From positions 1 through 53,410 of the forward strand of contig JAAYBH010000212.1 in NCBI GenBank assembly GCA_012718935.1: 53,410 nucleotides of DNA, read 5' to 3'. Both the position numbers and the translations under genes were made by a program. This document shows positions 2,142-45,670 of this stretch, piece by piece (the first letter of the stretch is position 1; every line of letters begins with the position of its first letter). Under the pieces are notes generated by a model, which was not told the DNA's origin, ran no database searches, and saw only the letters and a program-made list of their open reading frames with translations. Source of the stretch: Clostridiales bacterium. GTDB lineage: Bacteria > Bacillota > Clostridia > Oscillospirales > Oscillospiraceae.

Positions 2142-4403
2142 TTAAGACTCATACGGATCAACATCGGCAAAGACGTGAATGCCTCTGAATTCCCTGTTTT
2201 TCGCAGCCTCCCGGACGACATGGGCGATCGTATCCCGGATACGCCGGTTTATTTTGCAGCTGATGGACAGCCTGTACCGATACCTGTTGTTTATTTTAGC
2301 TACAGCAGCTGGAGCCGGGCCGAGAATCTTGATTTCATCAAGATCGCGGAAATAGCCCTGCAGTGCTTGCCGCAGTTTGACGCAGCTCTGCAGTACGAGA
2401 GTTTCATCCTGCCCGGAAACCGTCAGCGCCACCAGATCAAATATCGGCGGACTTCCCGTGAGCCGCCGAAGGGCGATCTCCCTTATGTAAAAACTATCGT
2501 AATCCTGACCGGCTGCGAGCCTGATCACCTCATTTGACGGTGTCAGCGTCTGTATGACCGCCCTGCCCTGCTTGCTGCCGCGGCCTGAACGCCCCACGAC
2601 CTGCGTTATAAGTGAGAAGGTACGTTCATGAGCCCTGTAGTCGTTAATGTACAGCATTTGGTCGGCCGACAGCACGCCCACAAGCGTCACGTTCTCAAAG
2701 TCAAGACCCTTGGCTACCATTTGCGTTCCCAGGAGAATCGGTATTTTTTTCTCCCGAAAGCGCGTCAGATGCTCTTCGTGCGTGTTTGACATGGAGACGG
2801 TGTCGGCGTCCATCCGGATGATTCCTGTGCCGGGAAGCAGCTCTCCGAGCTCCGACTCAACCTTTTGCGTCCCCGCACCGATGAATTTGAGTTTTCCGCC
2901 GCAATCCGGGCAGCTGTCTCTTTCAACCTCCGAATACCCGCAGTAATGGCACATAAGGCGCCTGTTGACGGAATGGTATGTGACAGAAACGCTGCAGCGC
3001 GGACAGGTAAAGGTGTAGCCGCATTCTCCGCACGCAATCAGCGTGCTGGCCCCTCTGCGGTTGATAAATAAAATACTCTGTTCGCCGCGCTCGAGGTTCG
3101 CCCGTATCTCACCGAGTAAAATCGAGCTTATTGTACCTCCGTTCCCGTTTTTTAATTCCTTTTTCATATCGGCGATGATAACGGGCGGAAGCTCCATTTC
3201 ATTGTATCTGTTTTCAAGGCGGTAAAGGCTGTATCTTCCTTCCCCGGCGCTGTACATGCTTTCAACGGAGGGCGTCGCCGAACCCAACACAAGAAGAGCG
3301 CCGGAGCTTACGCATCTGAATTTTGCGACATCCCTTGCATGATAGCGCGGGCTGTTTTCGGATTTATAGGTGTGTTCCTGCTCTTCGTCAATAATCAGCA
3401 GCCCAAGATTTGACACGGGCGCAAAAACGGCTGAGCGCGTCCCGACAACAACGTGAACGTTTCCCGCCCTGATGCGTTTCCACTCGTCGTAACGCTCGCC
3501 AATTCCCAGCGCAGAATGCAGAACGGCGATGTTATCGCCGAAATATGAAGCGAAGGTGCTGATGAGCTGCGGTGTCAGTGCGATTTCCGGTACAAGGACG
3601 AGGGCGTCTCTGCCCTTAACCAGCACTTTTTCAATCAGCTTGATATAGATTGATGTTTTTCCGCTGCCTGTGACGCCATAAAGTAAGGCCGCTCCGGCGC
3701 TTCCGCTGTCGAGCCGCTCGCTTAAATCATTAAATACGTCTTGTTGCTCAGCATTGAGAAGGATCGGGCCGTCCGCCTGTATGGTTTTGATGGATGGGCG
3801 GCGGAATACTTCCGTTTCCTTGAGAACAATAACGCCGAGGTCCGCCAGAGCCTTCACGCTTGAGCGCGACGCGCCGGTAAAATAGCAGAGCTCCTTTACA
3901 GACGCACTGCCGATTTGAGAAAGAAGTTCCAGAATATTGGACTGCTGAGGCGCTCTCTGCTTTTTCTGTGCGGCAAACAGGCTCGCTTCCTCGGCCGGTA
4001 TATCCAGAATGGCTGTCGTCACGGTTTTATCGCCGAGACGTTTAACCCCGTCCTTAAACCACATACCCGCGGGCAGCATGGCTTTAGCCGCGCTGTAAAC
4101 CGTGCAGAAGAACCTGTCGCTCATCCATAGGGCAAGCTTCAGCTGCTCCTGGCTGAGTACAGGCTTCTCATCCAACGACGTATTGATAAATTTCAGATCC
4201 TTTTTTTTACTTTCGCCGGATATAGGCAGCTTTTCAAAACTTGTGGATAAAACAAGCCCCTCGCTTCTTCTGTTGCCCCGGCCGAACGGGATGCTGACGC
4301 GCATTCCGGGAGTGAGCTTGTCCGCAAGCACTTCCGGGACCTTATATGTATATGGCTTATCGATGTGATAGGTTGCTGCCGCCACAGCCAGCCGGGCGAC
4401 CAT
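2142..4403 (-). CDS. priA: Primosomal protein N', replication restart helicase PriA
   Basis: A superfamily 2 DNA helicase that reloads the replisome at stalled forks. The N-terminal DNA-binding region begins VARLAVAAATYHIDKPYTY. A Walker A (GVTGSGKTS) and a DEEQ Walker B follow; the family usually has DEEH. Eight cysteines in CxxC pairs near 2870-3040 form the zinc-binding insertion, starting CGECGYTFTCPRC. The helicase C-terminal core contains QVVGRSGRG. The ATG at 4401-4403 gives 753 residues. An in-frame TTG at 4422-4424, four bases after an AGAGGG box, is an alternative start adding seven residues. It sits downstream of rpoZ and upstream of def. Confidence 0.96.
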   Translation of the reverse strand: MVARLAVAAATYHIDKPYTYKVPEVLADKLTPGMRVSIPFGRGNRRSEGLVLSTSFEKLPISGESKKKDLKFINTSLDEKPVLSQEQLKLALWMSDRFFCTVYSAAKAMLPAGMWFKDGVKRLGDKTVTTAILDIPAEEASLFAAQKKQRAPQQSNILELLSQIGSASVKELCYFTGASRSSVKALADLGVIVLKETEVFRRPSIKTIQADGPILLNAEQQDVFNDLSERLDSGSAGAALLYGVTGSGKTSIYIKLIEKVLVKGRDALVLVPEIALTPQLISTFASYFGDNIAVLHSALGIGERYDEWKRIRAGNVHVVVGTRSAVFAPVSNLGLLIIDEEQEHTYKSENSPRYHARDVAKFRCVSSGALLVLGSATPSVESMYSAGEGRYSLYRLENRYNEMELPPVIIADMKKELKNGNGGTISSILLGEIRANLERGEQSILFINRRGASTLIACGECGYTFTCPRCSVSVTYHSVNRRLMCHYCGYSEVERDSCPDCGGKLKFIGAGTQKVESELGELLPGTGIIRMDADTVSMSNTHEEHLTRFREKKIPILLGTQMVAKGLDFENVTLVGVLSADQMLYINDYRAHERTFSLITQVVGRSGRGSKQGRAVIQTLTPSNEVIRLAAGQDYDSFYIREIALRRLTGSPPIFDLVALTVSGQDETLVLQSCVKLRQALQGYFRDLDEIKILGPAPAAVAKINNRYRYRLSISCKINRRIRDTIAHVVREAAKNREFRGIHVFADVDPYES

Positions 4404-4455
4404 TATCTGTTCTGACAGGGACAAAGCACCCTCTTTATTTGGATATGTGGCATTC

Positions 4456-4480
4456 AAGGGACGACCCATGGCCGTCCTTT
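4456..4480. repeat. Imperfect hairpin between rpoZ and priA
   Basis: An inverted repeat with 11-base arms, a three-base loop (CAT), one A-C mismatch and one G-T wobble. On the plus strand it is followed by TTTATTTG, so it looks like a plus-strand terminator, although no plus-strand gene lies here. On the minus strand, where transcription runs, no U-tract follows. Its arms closely match the terminator at 39445-39473. It may be a processing or pausing hairpin in the rpoZ-priA spacer. Confidence 0.4.
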
Positions 4481-38567: not shown

Positions 38568-39425
38568 GTGAGAGCATTGATGCGGGCGATCGATAAATTC
38601 AGCCTGACGCACCGCCGCTTCGGCATACGGAGACTGATGCTGTATATCGTCATAGGGTATGCAGCCTATTATGTCATCGCCCAAATGGATTTGTCAGGCA
38701 TGTTTCTCTACTGGACGTATTTTGATCCCTCTTTGATTCTGAAAGGACAGGTATGGCGGCTTGTATCCTGGATATTCTATCCTTCAAGCGGACCAATTTT
38801 CTTTTTGGTATTGATGCTTTACTTCACCTATTTTATCGGCACATCTCTGGAACAGGAGTGGGGCACGCCAAAATTCACGATTTATTACCTTCTGTCTGTG
38901 CTGTTTAACATAATCTACGGTTTTGCCGTCTGGTTCATCAGCGGTACGAGAGTATTTCTCGTCTCCGACTACATGAATCTGTCGCTGCTGCTCGCATTTG
39001 CGACCCTCTTTCCGAATCAGACTTTTATGATCTTTTTTGTCATTCCCCTGAAAGTCAAATGGCTTGCCCTCATAGACGCCGTGTTTTTTATGTATGCTAT
39101 TGTTGCAGATTTGATCGCCGGCTGGTATTTCAACGCGTTCCTTCCGGTTGTCGCCGTCTTGAATTTCCTTATCTTCTGCTATGACGACCTGATGCATTAC
39201 CTGCGCCCTTACCGGACTGCCAGCACAAAGCAGGCCATAAACTTCAGGAAAGCGGCAAGAAGGAAAAGGCACGAGGAAGCCGCGCATCCCTACAGACACA
39301 AATGCGCCGTCTGCGGGAAAACGGACGCGGGGTTCCCAAGCCTTGAATTCCGTTATTGTTCTCGATGCAGCGGTTATCACTGCTTCTGCATCGACCATAT
39401 CAACAACCACGTGCATTTTCAATAA
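38568..39425 (+). CDS. Rhomboid-like membrane protein lacking protease residues, with zinc-ribbon tail
   Basis: A 285-residue protein with about six transmembrane helices and a cytoplasmic C-terminal CxxC...CxxC...C zinc-ribbon-like tail (CAVCGKTD, CSRCSGYHCFC). The loop GQVWRLVSWIFYP and the helix ending GTSLEQEWG match the rhomboid fold. The GxSG serine motif and the catalytic His are missing, so it is probably a pseudoprotease, like derlins or iRhoms. The GTG at 38568 follows GGGGGG. It is the only plus-strand gene in this part and has its own terminator. Confidence 0.85.
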   Translation: MRALMRAIDKFSLTHRRFGIRRLMLYIVIGYAAYYVIAQMDLSGMFLYWTYFDPSLILKGQVWRLVSWIFYPSSGPIFFLVLMLYFTYFIGTSLEQEWGTPKFTIYYLLSVLFNIIYGFAVWFISGTRVFLVSDYMNLSLLLAFATLFPNQTFMIFFVIPLKVKWLALIDAVFFMYAIVADLIAGWYFNAFLPVVAVLNFLIFCYDDLMHYLRPYRTASTKQAINFRKAARRKRHEEAAHPYRHKCAVCGKTDAGFPSLEFRYCSRCSGYHCFCIDHINNHVHFQ

Positions 39426-40222: not shown

Positions 40223-41569
40223 TTATCCTTTGACGGCCGCCTGGAGCACTGCGTTGGCGACGGCGCCCGCGGTTTTACTGCCGGCGCCGCCGTTTTCAAC
40301 GACGACGACGAAAGCCAGCGGGGCATCCTTGTTTGTGATATAACCGACAAACCAGGCATGGGGCTGCAAGCCGCCTCCGACCTCCGCCGTACCCGACTTG
40401 GCGTAAAGTTCCAGGCCCGCGTAATTTTTTTCACCATACGACTTATATACATTATAATTCATCATTGTCGCGATTTTGTCTGCCGTCTGCCTGCTCAGCA
40501 TCCGGTGTGAGCCGGGCGGCATAAGACCGGCAAGCCCTCTTTCGTGGATGAGGCTCATATCGACGGCGTCGCCGCCGTTTGCAATCGCACCGATAAACCG
40601 CAGCATATTTGCCGGGCAGACAGTGTCGTTGTACTGTCCTATTCCGGACCAGGCCAGATCGGCTGTCTCATCTTCGGCCTTTTCAAAATTACCTGCCGCT
40701 GTCATAATCCCTTCAATGTCGGCGCTTTTCGTCAGTCCGAGGTTTTCTGCGTATCGGCCGAGCGTGTCGGCGCCGAGCTCCAATGCCAGCTGTGCGAACG
40801 TGCTGTTGCAGGACACAGCCAAAGCGTCCTCTATGGATAGCTCTCCGTGTTTTTTAGTGCAGTTGACAATATCTCCGCCGATTTTCAGACTGCCGGCACA
40901 CTCGAAAGCGCGGTCATACAGGTCCGGCATATTCTCAATTGCCGCCGCCAGTGTGATAAGCTTGAATGTGGAACCCGGCGTATAGGCGCTGGAAAGGAAT
41001 CTGTTGAGATAGACTCCCTCGTATTGATCACCGGCCTTCTCGAAATCCGGCACGTCTGTCGGGTCAAAGGTTGGTGACGAAACCATGCAAATAATCTCGC
41101 CTGTCTTGTAATTCATAACGCCAACGGTTCCTTTCCTTCCGCCGAGCGCCTTGTATGCCGCAGTGTTCAGACCGGCATCGATGGACAGGTAGAGGTCCCT
41201 CCCCTCGCCTCGGCGCGTATACGCGCCGGACACAATATTATATCCCATCAGGCGCGACGCAAAAGCCTTAAGCGCGCCCGTACCGATATTGCCCCCCAGG
41301 TCCCCTACCGCATGGAGTGTCGCTTTTCGAACCTCGGCGCTGTCGGCGTACAGTCTTTTTCCGCCGTCTGCCTCAGTCAGAACGCCGCCGTTTCTGTCCA
41401 ACACCGTGCCGACTGTCAATTCGCCGTCTGTATAGACTGTCCTGTTTGACGGAAAAGACACCCAAAGCTTTCCGTTTGCAGTATATTTATAGATGTAAAA
41501 AGACAGCCCGACCAGTACCAGGGCGCACAAAAGCAGAAGTGCGCGTGCCCTGTTGCTGACTCTTTTCAT
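40223..41569 (-). CDS. Penicillin-binding transpeptidase (PbpA/FtsI-like)
   Basis: A class B PBP of 448 residues: one N-terminal transmembrane helix (ALLLLCALVLVGLSFYIY), a short non-catalytic region, then the transpeptidase with STFK (200-203), SCN (253-255) and KSG (391-393). It is short for class B, with a reduced pedestal, as in PbpA-type enzymes of Actinobacteria. It follows the FHA-SEDS gene by 33 bases, the expected SEDS glycosyltransferase/PBP pair. Confidence 0.94.
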   Translation of the reverse strand: MKRVSNRARALLLLCALVLVGLSFYIYKYTANGKLWVSFPSNRTVYTDGELTVGTVLDRNGGVLTEADGGKRLYADSAEVRKATLHAVGDLGGNIGTGALKAFASRLMGYNIVSGAYTRRGEGRDLYLSIDAGLNTAAYKALGGRKGTVGVMNYKTGEIICMVSSPTFDPTDVPDFEKAGDQYEGVYLNRFLSSAYTPGSTFKLITLAAAIENMPDLYDRAFECAGSLKIGGDIVNCTKKHGELSIEDALAVSCNSTFAQLALELGADTLGRYAENLGLTKSADIEGIMTAAGNFEKAEDETADLAWSGIGQYNDTVCPANMLRFIGAIANGGDAVDMSLIHERGLAGLMPPGSHRMLSRQTADKIATMMNYNVYKSYGEKNYAGLELYAKSGTAEVGGGLQPHAWFVGYITNKDAPLAFVVVVENGGAGSKTAGAVANAVLQAAVKG

Positions 41570-41602
41570 CTTCCTTCACTTCCGTTTCTTAATGTGCTGC
41601 GA

Positions 41603-43474
41603 TCATTGATCCTCAACGTCATCCCCTATGAAGTCCTCATCAAATTCGAAATCAATCAACGAGGGAGCATCCGCACCTGGCTCTCCTCCGTTTTCAATTT
41701 CCCCTTTTTCTTCATGTTCATAAAATATCCTTTTTTCTTTTTTTCCGATATGCTTCGGCGTTCGAACGACAAAGCTTGCGTTCCTGCGCATATCAATCGC
41801 TTTGATAAAAGCCAGCAGTCCCCAGCACGCAACCAGGCTCGAGCCTCCTTTTGAGACAAAGGGAAACGTGACGCCTGTGAAAGGCAGAATGTCAACCGAG
41901 CCGAGCACATTCAGAATCATCTGGAAGATCAGAACAGTAACGGATGCACATGCGCCGATCACGTAAAACGAGCTGCGCACGGCACGTGAGGCGTTGATTG
42001 CATGAAATGAGAGGATAAGCAAAGCAAAAACAGCGACAGACGCAACGATCAGGCCAAGTTCCTCGCATAAAATTCCGAAGACCATATCCGTATCGGCGGC
42101 GAATATGTTCTTTAGCCATCCGTTTCCCGCACCCACGCCGAAAAGGCCGCCGCTGGCTGCCGCGGCCATCGTTCGCGTCTGCTGATAGCCGGAAGTGTTG
42201 GCATATTCCCATGCGTGTCCCCACGTGGCAAACCGGGCCGCCACATGCGGTTTGAGCGTTACGGCCATGAAACCGGCGAATCCTGCGCCGGCAACACTTA
42301 AGATCACTGTCGCCAAATCACCCGAACGTATGAAGGAAATGGCAAGGTATGCGATGAAAAAGACAAGCGCCGTACCAAAATCACCCATCAGGGCCAGCGC
42401 CATCACACAAACACCGGAGAAAGCGACAAATAAAACAAGGTTACGCCTGGCAAAAAGCCTGTCCAGCGTCGCTGCTCCGGCAAAAACAAATGAAATTTTG
42501 ACAAACTCCGACGGTTGAAAGGTGATGCCGCTAATCGTCAGCCAGTTTCTGGCGCCGAATACCGTGCCGCTCAGAAGCAGGTTGGCCCCGAGCAGAAGCA
42601 GGCCTGTGACGGCGATCGGCCATCGCAGCCTGACCGCTCTTTTCAAGTCTCTTAAAAACCAACCCATCAGAAAAAAGAATAATACCCCCGCCGTCAGTAA
42701 AGCGATTTGTTTATACAAGTCGGCCGGCGCGGAGGATGCTGCAACGCCCATCCCGATGGTGCTTAAAAAAAGTGCGATTGTCTCGACCTCAAACGCCACC
42801 CTGCGCAGGAGTCTCGTCAGCAGATAGCCAAACCATGTCAGGACGATCAAACCGGCAAAACAGACGGGGACTGCCAGGGGCAGGGCTTCATCATATGATA
42901 TACAGAGCTGCAAACAGAGGGTTATCTGAAAAAGAGTCAGAAAAAAAAGAGTTGTGAACGGCTTGACATACTTTCCGGGCTGTATCCTTTCTTCAGACTC
43001 CATGGCCTGTTCATATTTACTGATGGCGATGAATACGAGCTCGACTCCGCCCAATGTGATGATGTCGCCTGTTTTGATTTGCGCTCTTTCGGTGATCCTT
43101 TCCCCGTTGAGCATGACGCCGCCCTTTGAGTCCAGGTCATGGAGCCGCCATCGTCCTTTGACATCACGGATGACCGTTGCATGGCTGCGTGACAGTGTCG
43201 GGTACTCCATGTAGACATCGGAGGCTTTTGACCGGCCGATAATGTTCTCCCAATGATTCAATCGGATTTTAGAGCCGTTGGGCAGGCTGAGGTATCCCCA
43301 CGCTTCAAAGTCGTTTTCCTCAATCAGAAGCGACTTCACAGAACGGTAGACGATAAGGACTGCAAGAATTGGAAGGATAAACCGGATGATAAACGTAAAA
43401 TAAGAGAAAAACTCCGCTGGATTTTCCGAAATTAAAAGACGGAGCTTTTCAAGCAGCTCGCTGAGCCATTCGAT
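41603..43474 (-). CDS. FHA-domain/SEDS (FtsW-RodA) fusion glycosyltransferase
   Basis: A multi-pass peptidoglycan polymerase fused to a phosphothreonine-binding FHA domain. I propose a start at ATC 43472-43474, nine bases after AAAGGAG, giving 623 residues: a short amphipathic region, a transmembrane helix (FIIRFILPILAVLIVYRSV), FHA (about 60-150; GRSKASD and SRSH), then the SEDS core with GARNWLTI...QPSEFVK, MGDFGTALV and PFVSKGGSS. The first conventional start (GTG 43339) would cut the helix off. An acidic tail ends it. The kinase that would phosphorylate a ligand is not in the window. Confidence 0.85.
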   Translation of the reverse strand: MEWLSELLEKLRLLISENPAEFFSYFTFIIRFILPILAVLIVYRSVKSLLIEENDFEAWGYLSLPNGSKIRLNHWENIIGRSKASDVYMEYPTLSRSHATVIRDVKGRWRLHDLDSKGGVMLNGERITERAQIKTGDIITLGGVELVFIAISKYEQAMESEERIQPGKYVKPFTTLFFLTLFQITLCLQLCISYDEALPLAVPVCFAGLIVLTWFGYLLTRLLRRVAFEVETIALFLSTIGMGVAASSAPADLYKQIALLTAGVLFFFLMGWFLRDLKRAVRLRWPIAVTGLLLLGANLLLSGTVFGARNWLTISGITFQPSEFVKISFVFAGAATLDRLFARRNLVLFVAFSGVCVMALALMGDFGTALVFFIAYLAISFIRSGDLATVILSVAGAGFAGFMAVTLKPHVAARFATWGHAWEYANTSGYQQTRTMAAAASGGLFGVGAGNGWLKNIFAADTDMVFGILCEELGLIVASVAVFALLILSFHAINASRAVRSSFYVIGACASVTVLIFQMILNVLGSVDILPFTGVTFPFVSKGGSSLVACWGLLAFIKAIDMRRNASFVVRTPKHIGKKEKRIFYEHEEKGEIENGGEPGADAPSLIDFEFDEDFIGDDVEDQ

Positions 43475-43609
43475 TGTACGTCACTCCTTTCCCGCCGAAT
43501 AAAAGAAACGGGCGGACATGAAATAATCAGCCATACCGGCACAGCCTTTCCAGGCGCCGCCCTGTCGTGATTCATTTCCTGCCCACCCGCTGCATGTTTG
43601 GTATAATTC

Positions 43610-45670
43610 TTATTCCGCTTCGTTCAAGGCCTTCGCCTCTTCGATGATCTTTGCCTGAACGACGGCAGGAGCTTCCTCATAACGCTCAAAGCGAATTGTA
43701 AAGGAGCCTCTGCCCTGTGTCATTGAGCGAAGGTCGATGGCATAGCTCGACATCTCGCCCATCGGCACTTCCGCTTCGATAACCTGCATGCCGTCCGCAT
43801 CCAGACTCATCCCCATCGGGCTGCCGCGGCGCTTCGACAAATCTGACATGATGTCACCGGTATATGTGTCCGGAATGGATACGGTCAAATAGCCTATCGG
43901 CTCCAGGATAACAGGATTGGCCTGCGGGATGCCGTCTTTATATGCCAGCTGCGCAGCTGTTTTGAATGCCATTTCCGACGAATCGACGGGGTGATACGAA
44001 CCGTCCACAAGCGTCGCCTTCAGAAAAACCATAGGGTAACCGGCCAGAACACCCTTCTGGATACTGTCGCGAAGACCCTTTTCAACGGCGGGGAAAAAGT
44101 TTTTCGGAACGCTGCCGCCGAAAACATTCTCAGCAAAAATGAGATCCTCTTCTTCACCGGGCTCAAAATCGATAACGACGTCGCCAAACTGGCCATGACC
44201 GCCGGACTGCTTTTTGTGGCGACCCCTGACCTGTACTTTTTTGCGGATCTTTTCGCGGTACGCAACGCGGGCCGGTGACAGTACGACCTCGACGCCGAAC
44301 TTGTCCTTCAATTTGGAACAGAGCACATCCAGCTGAATGTCTCCCGCACCTGACAGGACCATCTGCTTCGTCTCGGCGTTATTGAAGACGCTGAAGGTTT
44401 GATCCTCCTCACCGAGCCTTGCCAAACCGGAGGCGATCTTTTCCTCCTGACCCTTTGTCTTGGGCGCAATCGCCATGGAATAGCACGGTGGCGCAAATTC
44501 AATCCCCTGTGCGGTAACGGGCTTTTTGGGATCAGCCAGCGTGTCGGCCGTCTTTGTGTCGGATAGCTTGGAAACAGCGCCGATATCGCCGCAGATAACT
44601 TCCTTTATCTCAACGCTCTTTTTCCCCTGCATCTTAAAAATATGGCCGATCTTTTCCTGTGACCCGGTTCTCGAATTGATAAGAGACATATCTGCTGCAA
44701 CCTTGCCGGACAGGACTTTGAAATAGCTGAACTTGCCATACTGGTCGGAGACCGTCTTATACACAATGGCTACCGTCGATCCGTTCGGATCGGCTGCGAT
44801 GACAGTGTCCTCTGAGCTGATTTCCTTTCGGCCGTCAAGGGGCGACGGGAACAGGTTGATAACGGCGTCCAGAAGCGGCAGCGTTCCGAGTCCGGTGAGC
44901 GCGCAGCCACAGAAAACGGGATACAGCGTCCGATCCTTCACACCGACCTTTAAGCCTGTAATGACTTCATCAACAGTAAACTGTTCTCCGGAGAAATACT
45001 TCTCCATGAGCTCCTCGCTCGTTTCAGCGACGCTTTCATTGACTGCCGTATAAAGTGTTTCAAGCTCGGATTTCATACTGTCGGGAATCGGAATCTCTTT
45101 TGTTTTTCCGCCCTCAACCGTAAAAGCTTTCCTGTTGATCAGATCAATCAGGCCTTCAACCTTTCCTGCGGCATTTTTAATCGGCGCAATCATCGGACAG
45201 ACAGATGTGCCGTATTTATCGCGAAGCGCGCTGTAAACGGCCTCGTAGTTGCCGTTTTCCTCATCAATTTTCGAAACGTAGATAGCACGCGGGAGCTTCT
45301 GCTTCTCGAGATATTTCCAGGCCTTTTCAAGGCCGACGGTAATACCGTCCTTCGCGCCGCAGACAATGATCCCGGCATCGGCGACACGGAGTGCCTCAGC
45401 AACCTCACCCGCGAAATCAAAAAAACCCGGCGTGTCAAGAATATTAATCTTGCAGTCTCTGTATTCAGAATACATCGTCGCCAGTGATATCGAAATCTGG
45501 CGTTTGATCTCCTCTGCCTCAGAATCTCCGACGGTATTACCGTCAACAATCCTGCCGAGCCTGTCCGTCTGGCCTGTTAAAAACAGCATGCTCTCGGCAA
45601 GACTTGTTTTTCCATTGCTCCCATGTCCCAGAAGAGCAATATTCCGGATTTTATCAGTGGCATAGGTCAT
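43610..45670 (-). CDS. Elongation factor G paralogue (EF-G2 type)
   Basis: A 686-residue translational GTPase. G1 is GHGSNGKTS (15-23), G3 DTPGF (79-83) and G4 SKID (133-136) where canonical EF-G has NKxD. Domains II-V follow, with a domain IV starting RVAYREKIRKK and containing GGHGQFGD, and domain V with a C-terminal SYAIDLRSMTQGRG. It is not next to rpsL/rpsG or tuf, so it is a second copy and not main fusA. A promoter lies at 45708-45736. The role is probably ribosome recycling or stress translation, unproven. Confidence 0.93.
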   Translation of the reverse strand: MTYATDKIRNIALLGHGSNGKTSLAESMLFLTGQTDRLGRIVDGNTVGDSEAEEIKRQISISLATMYSEYRDCKINILDTPGFFDFAGEVAEALRVADAGIIVCGAKDGITVGLEKAWKYLEKQKLPRAIYVSKIDEENGNYEAVYSALRDKYGTSVCPMIAPIKNAAGKVEGLIDLINRKAFTVEGGKTKEIPIPDSMKSELETLYTAVNESVAETSEELMEKYFSGEQFTVDEVITGLKVGVKDRTLYPVFCGCALTGLGTLPLLDAVINLFPSPLDGRKEISSEDTVIAADPNGSTVAIVYKTVSDQYGKFSYFKVLSGKVAADMSLINSRTGSQEKIGHIFKMQGKKSVEIKEVICGDIGAVSKLSDTKTADTLADPKKPVTAQGIEFAPPCYSMAIAPKTKGQEEKIASGLARLGEEDQTFSVFNNAETKQMVLSGAGDIQLDVLCSKLKDKFGVEVVLSPARVAYREKIRKKVQVRGRHKKQSGGHGQFGDVVIDFEPGEEEDLIFAENVFGGSVPKNFFPAVEKGLRDSIQKGVLAGYPMVFLKATLVDGSYHPVDSSEMAFKTAAQLAYKDGIPQANPVILEPIGYLTVSIPDTYTGDIMSDLSKRRGSPMGMSLDADGMQVIEAEVPMGEMSSYAIDLRSMTQGRGSFTIRFERYEEAPAVVQAKIIEEAKALNEAE

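Follow-up and report, generated by a model that had tools for sequence, protein, structure and literature searches.

At which codon does translation begin in a gene whose reading frame offers no ordinary start codon where one is expected? This question is raised by a gene on the minus strand of the window, the whole stretch of 53,410 nucleotides analysed here (G000:C120, from a 3.3 Mb assembly of 541 contigs), which encodes a protein with an FHA and a SEDS domain (FHA-SEDS). An original prediction had proposed that this gene starts at AUC.

The start site and the encoded protein

The open frame that carries both domains runs over 41603-43480 (-), directly after an in-frame TGA (43481-43483, -) that excludes any canonical start farther upstream. 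At the gene start the minus strand reads ...GCGGG AAAGGAG TGA CGT ACA ATC GAA TGG CTC..., in which the Shine-Dalgarno (SD) box AAAGGAG (43484-43490, -) stands nine bases before the proposed start codon ATC (43472-43474, -). The first canonical codon, and thus the choice of a gene finder limited to ATG, GTG and TTG, is a GTG at 43337-43339 (-); between the TGA and this GTG there is no in-frame ATG, GTG or TTG. Re-reading of the window sequence confirmed the coordinates that the original prediction had given for the TGA and the GTG, as well as its claims of an interval free of canonical codons and of an ATC nine bases behind a near-ideal box. With an assumed standard anti-SD, the SD duplex at the ATC was calculated at about -10.2 kcal/mol (-10.6 in the related genome G005) versus -1.1 kcal/mol at the GTG, and pairing may extend beyond AAAGGAG into the adjoining TGA. 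Taken alone, a gap of 47 codons lacking a canonical start has a chance of about 9%, on the assumption that 3 of 61 codons can act as starts; the AUC case rises above chance because of the strong SD, the recurrence of this layout in another species and the homology of the ATC to canonical starts, in combination. Among the other conserved genes of the window, none had a similar gap that was not explained by overlap with a neighbouring gene, such overlaps being judged by eye from the coordinates. A hairpin found just after the AUC in G000 (43459-43442) is absent from G005.

Read from the AUC, the gene occupies 41603-43474 (-) and would encode 623 amino acids, an assignment based on the stop-to-stop frame, Pfam, orthologues, a structure model and Foldseek. 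An N-terminal helix comes first, followed by the FHA domain and then by the FtsW/RodA (SEDS) domain. Indeed, Pfam detected FHA and FTSW_RODA_SPOVE (PF01098, 171 bits), and Foldseek returned FtsW/RodA matches (TMt 0.68-0.81) together with FHA matches. The protein falls short of the NCBIfam equivalog cut-offs for both FtsW (179 bits vs 337.5) and RodA (147 vs 336.7). Invariant acidic residues appear in the alignment, and the product is likely a SEDS-family cell-wall (peptidoglycan) polymerase, as predicted from its sequence. It shares its domains, by sequence and fold, with the FtsW/RodA polymerases that have class B penicillin-binding protein (PBP) partners, and a PBP gene adjoins it here; its FHA domain matches, again by sequence and fold, the FHA proteins FhaB/FipA and GarA/OdhI. 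In contrast to FtsW/RodA, an FHA domain and an extra N-terminal helix are fused onto the SEDS domain. Our search of the literature on FHA-SEDS fusions in clostridia found nothing specific.

The N-terminal membrane helix covers residues 19-51 counted from the ATC (43322-43420, -) and is cut by a start at the GTG. The original prediction that the interval between ATC and GTG codes for a transmembrane helix was borne out by hydropathy (Kyte-Doolittle up to 2.29), by conservation (≥90% at R31, P35 and A38 across 40 sequences) and by the structure model, in which the helix was modelled at 19-51 with a block pLDDT of 88-97 across residues 21-50 (whole model: pLDDT 84.8, pTM 0.86). The GTG lacks a ribosome site and splits this helix, both as had been claimed.

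Start positions in relatives and start strength at the locus

The relatives of G000 belong to the Oscillospiraceae, and one of them, a Sporobacter termitidis MAG, is of the same genus. Particularly informative was G005, a separate assembly from this genus with an FHA-SEDS protein 69% identical to that of G000, the two genomes being sisters in the tree (support 100/88). Its start reads AGAGGAGTGACGCGTC-ATC-GGC-TGG, with GGAG, nine bases and ATC; the TGA is in the same place, no canonical codon follows for 34 codons, a GTG stands in the position of the G000 GTG, and additional in-frame TGAs lie upstream. Retention of the ATC in these two genomes is by itself weak evidence, because about 39% of neighbouring codons are identical between them anyway. 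The G000 ATC aligns without gaps with the TTG (L004, L035, L036), GTG (L010, L039) and ATG (L132) starts of relatives, and the GAA TGG that follows the start codon is common to G000, L036, L039 and L132. From the ATC to the GTG the frame is open and coding, with differences between G000 and G005 concentrated at third codon positions. Four other members of the genus have canonical starts for this gene, and AUC is therefore not needed for function.

Of 99 FHA-SEDS orthologues, 90 start at a canonical codon that has an SD and lies ahead of the helix, five lack a clear SD at their canonical codon and four have neither; none was seen to start after the N-terminal helix. The original prediction had named, as findings that would speak against it, orthologues beginning at the GTG without the helix or a sequencing error hiding an ATG. 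No such orthologue was seen in this set, in which the helix is conserved, and the error is unlikely since G005 carries the same SD-ATC arrangement and no canonical start. Two further orthologues also have no canonical start: the candidates are AAAGGAGATTAGTCT-ACG in L064 and, exactly where relatives have TTG, GTG or ATG, AAAGGAGGGGATGATAT-ACG in G046 (L114), so that both seem, from their sequences, to begin with ACG behind AAAGGAG. Three separate changes are needed on the tree to account for the near-cognate starts of FHA-SEDS.

The gene lies between that for elongation factor G, upstream (43610-45670, -), and that for a class-B-type PBP, downstream (40223-41569, -), which starts with ATG and matches the NCBIfam pbp2/spoVD-like models below cut-off; the order EF-G, FHA-SEDS, PBP is also found in G005. 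The adjacent PBP is likely the partner of the SEDS protein, and it served as a start-codon control at 66 loci where both genes were readable and starts were assigned by rule. A non-AUG start was found for FHA-SEDS at 32/66 loci versus 10/66 for the PBP, and the discordant pairs numbered 26 versus 4 (sign test 6e-5, a value that ignores the relatedness of the loci). This bias towards weak starts fits an FHA-SEDS protein kept low relative to its transpeptidase partner. In actinobacteria, fha, rodA and pbpA are separate genes, and the fusion beside a class-B-type PBP (window 40223-43474) resembles that set. Elsewhere in the window, 38568-39425 encodes a conserved membrane protein that is rhomboid-like by eye and has zero NCBIfam matches.

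Near-cognate starts elsewhere in the lineage

The infC gene has an AUU/AUA/AUC start and is autoregulated through IF3 in E. coli, and that of S. aureus, a further near-cognate case in Firmicutes, starts with AUA. The original prediction had invoked infC as a precedent for regulation, and the link is stronger than was then known, as the infC genes of G000 and G005 themselves start with AUC. In G000, where infC sits on another contig than FHA-SEDS, there is no canonical start at the SD of infC and the site reads AGGAGGTGCATATTT-ATC-AGC. The homologous ATC is present in G001-G005, G079, G046 and G012, so that AUC behind GGAGG extends over the genus and to three members of the family outside it (L152 for G000; L148-L151, L153-L156); in G013 (L157) infC appears, judging from the alignment, to use ACG at the homologous codon. 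In both genes a strong SD precedes a near-cognate AUH codon, and in the same genomes this codon is AUC. Unlike infC, FHA-SEDS encodes a SEDS cell-wall polymerase and not IF3, and therefore no direct feedback loop on IF3 is expected. An unusual initiator tRNA or IF3 was considered as a cause and rejected: the tRNA-Met(CAT) gene of G000 is ordinary, with the initiator stem GGGCTCATAACCC, and its IF3, equally ordinary, can be aligned along its length with IF3s of solved structure. Special machinery is therefore unneeded for an AUC start.

The base rate of such starts was estimated by comparing 750,799 bases (one contig) of G005 with 1.6 Mb of G003, which gave 334 non-overlapping reciprocal best hits, 293 of them usable at ≥45% identity. 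In G005 an APC-type permease and its paralogue likely start at AUA, and the permease of G003 at AUC, all at the same position (L276, L278, L277). A YycJ-like metallohydrolase of G005 (C28:638580-639359, minus; L288) likely has an AUU start, with ATT where G000, G001, G004 and G006 have ATG. In the PriA gene of G005 (L279), 61 codons pass without a canonical one, and a CTG behind GGGAGGGACC is the candidate start, a call of which we are less sure than of the two preceding ones; the PriA of the window (2142-4469) has canonical starts. With FHA-SEDS and infC included, near-cognate starts amount to about 5/293 conserved genes versus 6/2265 conserved genes in Listeria (PMC13068326; Fisher p ~0.005, with methods that differ between the two counts), which is only a hint of a higher rate in this lineage. 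The apparent ATA start of a histidine kinase (a_396) was dropped, as its conserved letters are, by eye, the end of an overlapping response regulator gene, and many other start-less alignments of the screen proved to be antisense shadows or to arise where genes overlap their neighbours. A conserved ORF (GTEELGHLEM...; G005 C28:86957-87430 minus, G003 C1:1228816-1229364 minus), presumably spore-coat CotJC-like, seems to be without its N-terminal part in both genomes, and its upstream sequence differs between them.

Published work provides a frame for these observations. Annotated switches to near-cognate codons are very rare, with one AUG to AUU among 61,358 ancestral AUG starts (PMC5622118). 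In two Clostridium species, AUC, AUU, AUA and CUG gave 5-20% of AUG activity behind one 5' UTR, and alternative starts gave 40-100% behind another, versus 0.04-3% in E. coli, so that the near-cognate penalty may be milder in clostridia (PMC9680021). Non-canonical AUU and AUA starts reached about 10% of AUG in S. aureus in poor medium, and the starts of ccpN (AUA, S. aureus and B. subtilis) and cvfC1 (AUU, S. aureus) were mapped by ribosome profiling (PMC13009471). These two genes resemble FHA-SEDS in combining a conserved non-canonical start with a strong SD, at about 10% of AUG in reporters, and differ from it in codon and product. The ATC start of Listeria monocytogenes rnhC (PMC13068326) likewise represents a fixed AUC in a conserved Firmicutes gene; it belongs to another gene and lineage and was confirmed by experiment, whereas that of FHA-SEDS is predicted from sequence. 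Finally, extra IF3 in vitro lowered the yield with weak third-base pairs (PMC10158994).

Probable initiation at AUC and its possible role

Taken together, FHA-SEDS is very probably translated from the AUC at 43474-43472, because the layout is conserved, the start position is homologous, the helix is conserved and the SD is strong. Translation from the GTG at 43339-43337, either alone or as a second isoform, would yield a 578-residue protein without the helix; although this GTG comes first among the canonical codons and has a counterpart in the same position of G005, it has no SD (-1.1 kcal/mol) and cuts through a helix upstream of which the orthologues begin, and we rejected it as highly improbable. 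The fragmentation of G000 leaves room for single errors, and a wrong base might have turned an ATG, GTG or TTG into ATC, or an indel might hide the start; that G005 has the same ATC, spacing and missing canonical start, in a frame that is open and coding up to the GTG with mostly third-position differences, makes this even less credible. The faintest prospect is that ribosomes reach the frame by reading through the TGA or by shifting frame after starting upstream. G000 does have a short in-frame ATG stretch before the TGA and an out-of-frame ATG just after the ATC, but G005 has several in-frame TGAs upstream and a CTG replacing the out-of-frame ATG, and both readthrough and frameshift from a neighbouring ATG or GTG were rejected as not conserved.

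At the AUC, the strong SD would place the ribosome on 43474-43472, and the ordinary CAU initiator tRNA would read the codon with the first two pairs kept and the third base mismatched. In the resulting 623-residue protein, the N-terminal helix would anchor the FHA domain ahead of the SEDS polymerase. Initiation at AUC may be weaker than at AUG and may hold FHA-SEDS low relative to its PBP partner, and a shortage of IF3 might raise the FHA-SEDS level along with that of the AUC-started infC. Such a regulatory role (lower expression, IF3 sensitivity) is plausible from the published data and the weak-start bias, and we put it at about an even chance. Somewhat short of even is the likelihood of a view that accepts the AUC start and disputes its function only, in which the codon is a neutral relic of start codons drifting under relaxed recognition. 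The other near-cognates of G005 (permease AUA, YycJ-like AUU, PriA CUG), their frequency beside that of Listeria and the good tolerance of such codons in clostridia (PMC9680021) speak for drift; a hint that weak initiation is under selection comes from the weak-start bias of FHA-SEDS against the neighbouring PBP and from the fact that near-cognate codons arose three separate times in the family. It is conceivable, though rather doubtful, that a few genes of the genus (infC, FHA-SEDS, the APC permease and others) form an unannotated group whose AUC, AUA or AUU starts make them react jointly to the amount of IF3 or to the fidelity of initiation.

To conclude, the comparative evidence gives good support to the AUC start of FHA-SEDS as a further case of the near-cognate starts known in Firmicutes, and a likely cell-division or elongation polymerase would join the short list of conserved AUC-start genes. 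A gene finder that accepts only ATG, GTG and TTG would cut its product short inside the first helix, and there is a hint that near-cognate starts concern perhaps 1-2% of the conserved genes of this lineage. Conservation in two species, together with the AUC of infC, makes it possible to test directly if the amount of IF3 governs genes beyond infC. If true, an IF3-responsive set of AUH-start genes would tie cell-wall synthesis to the condition of the translation apparatus.
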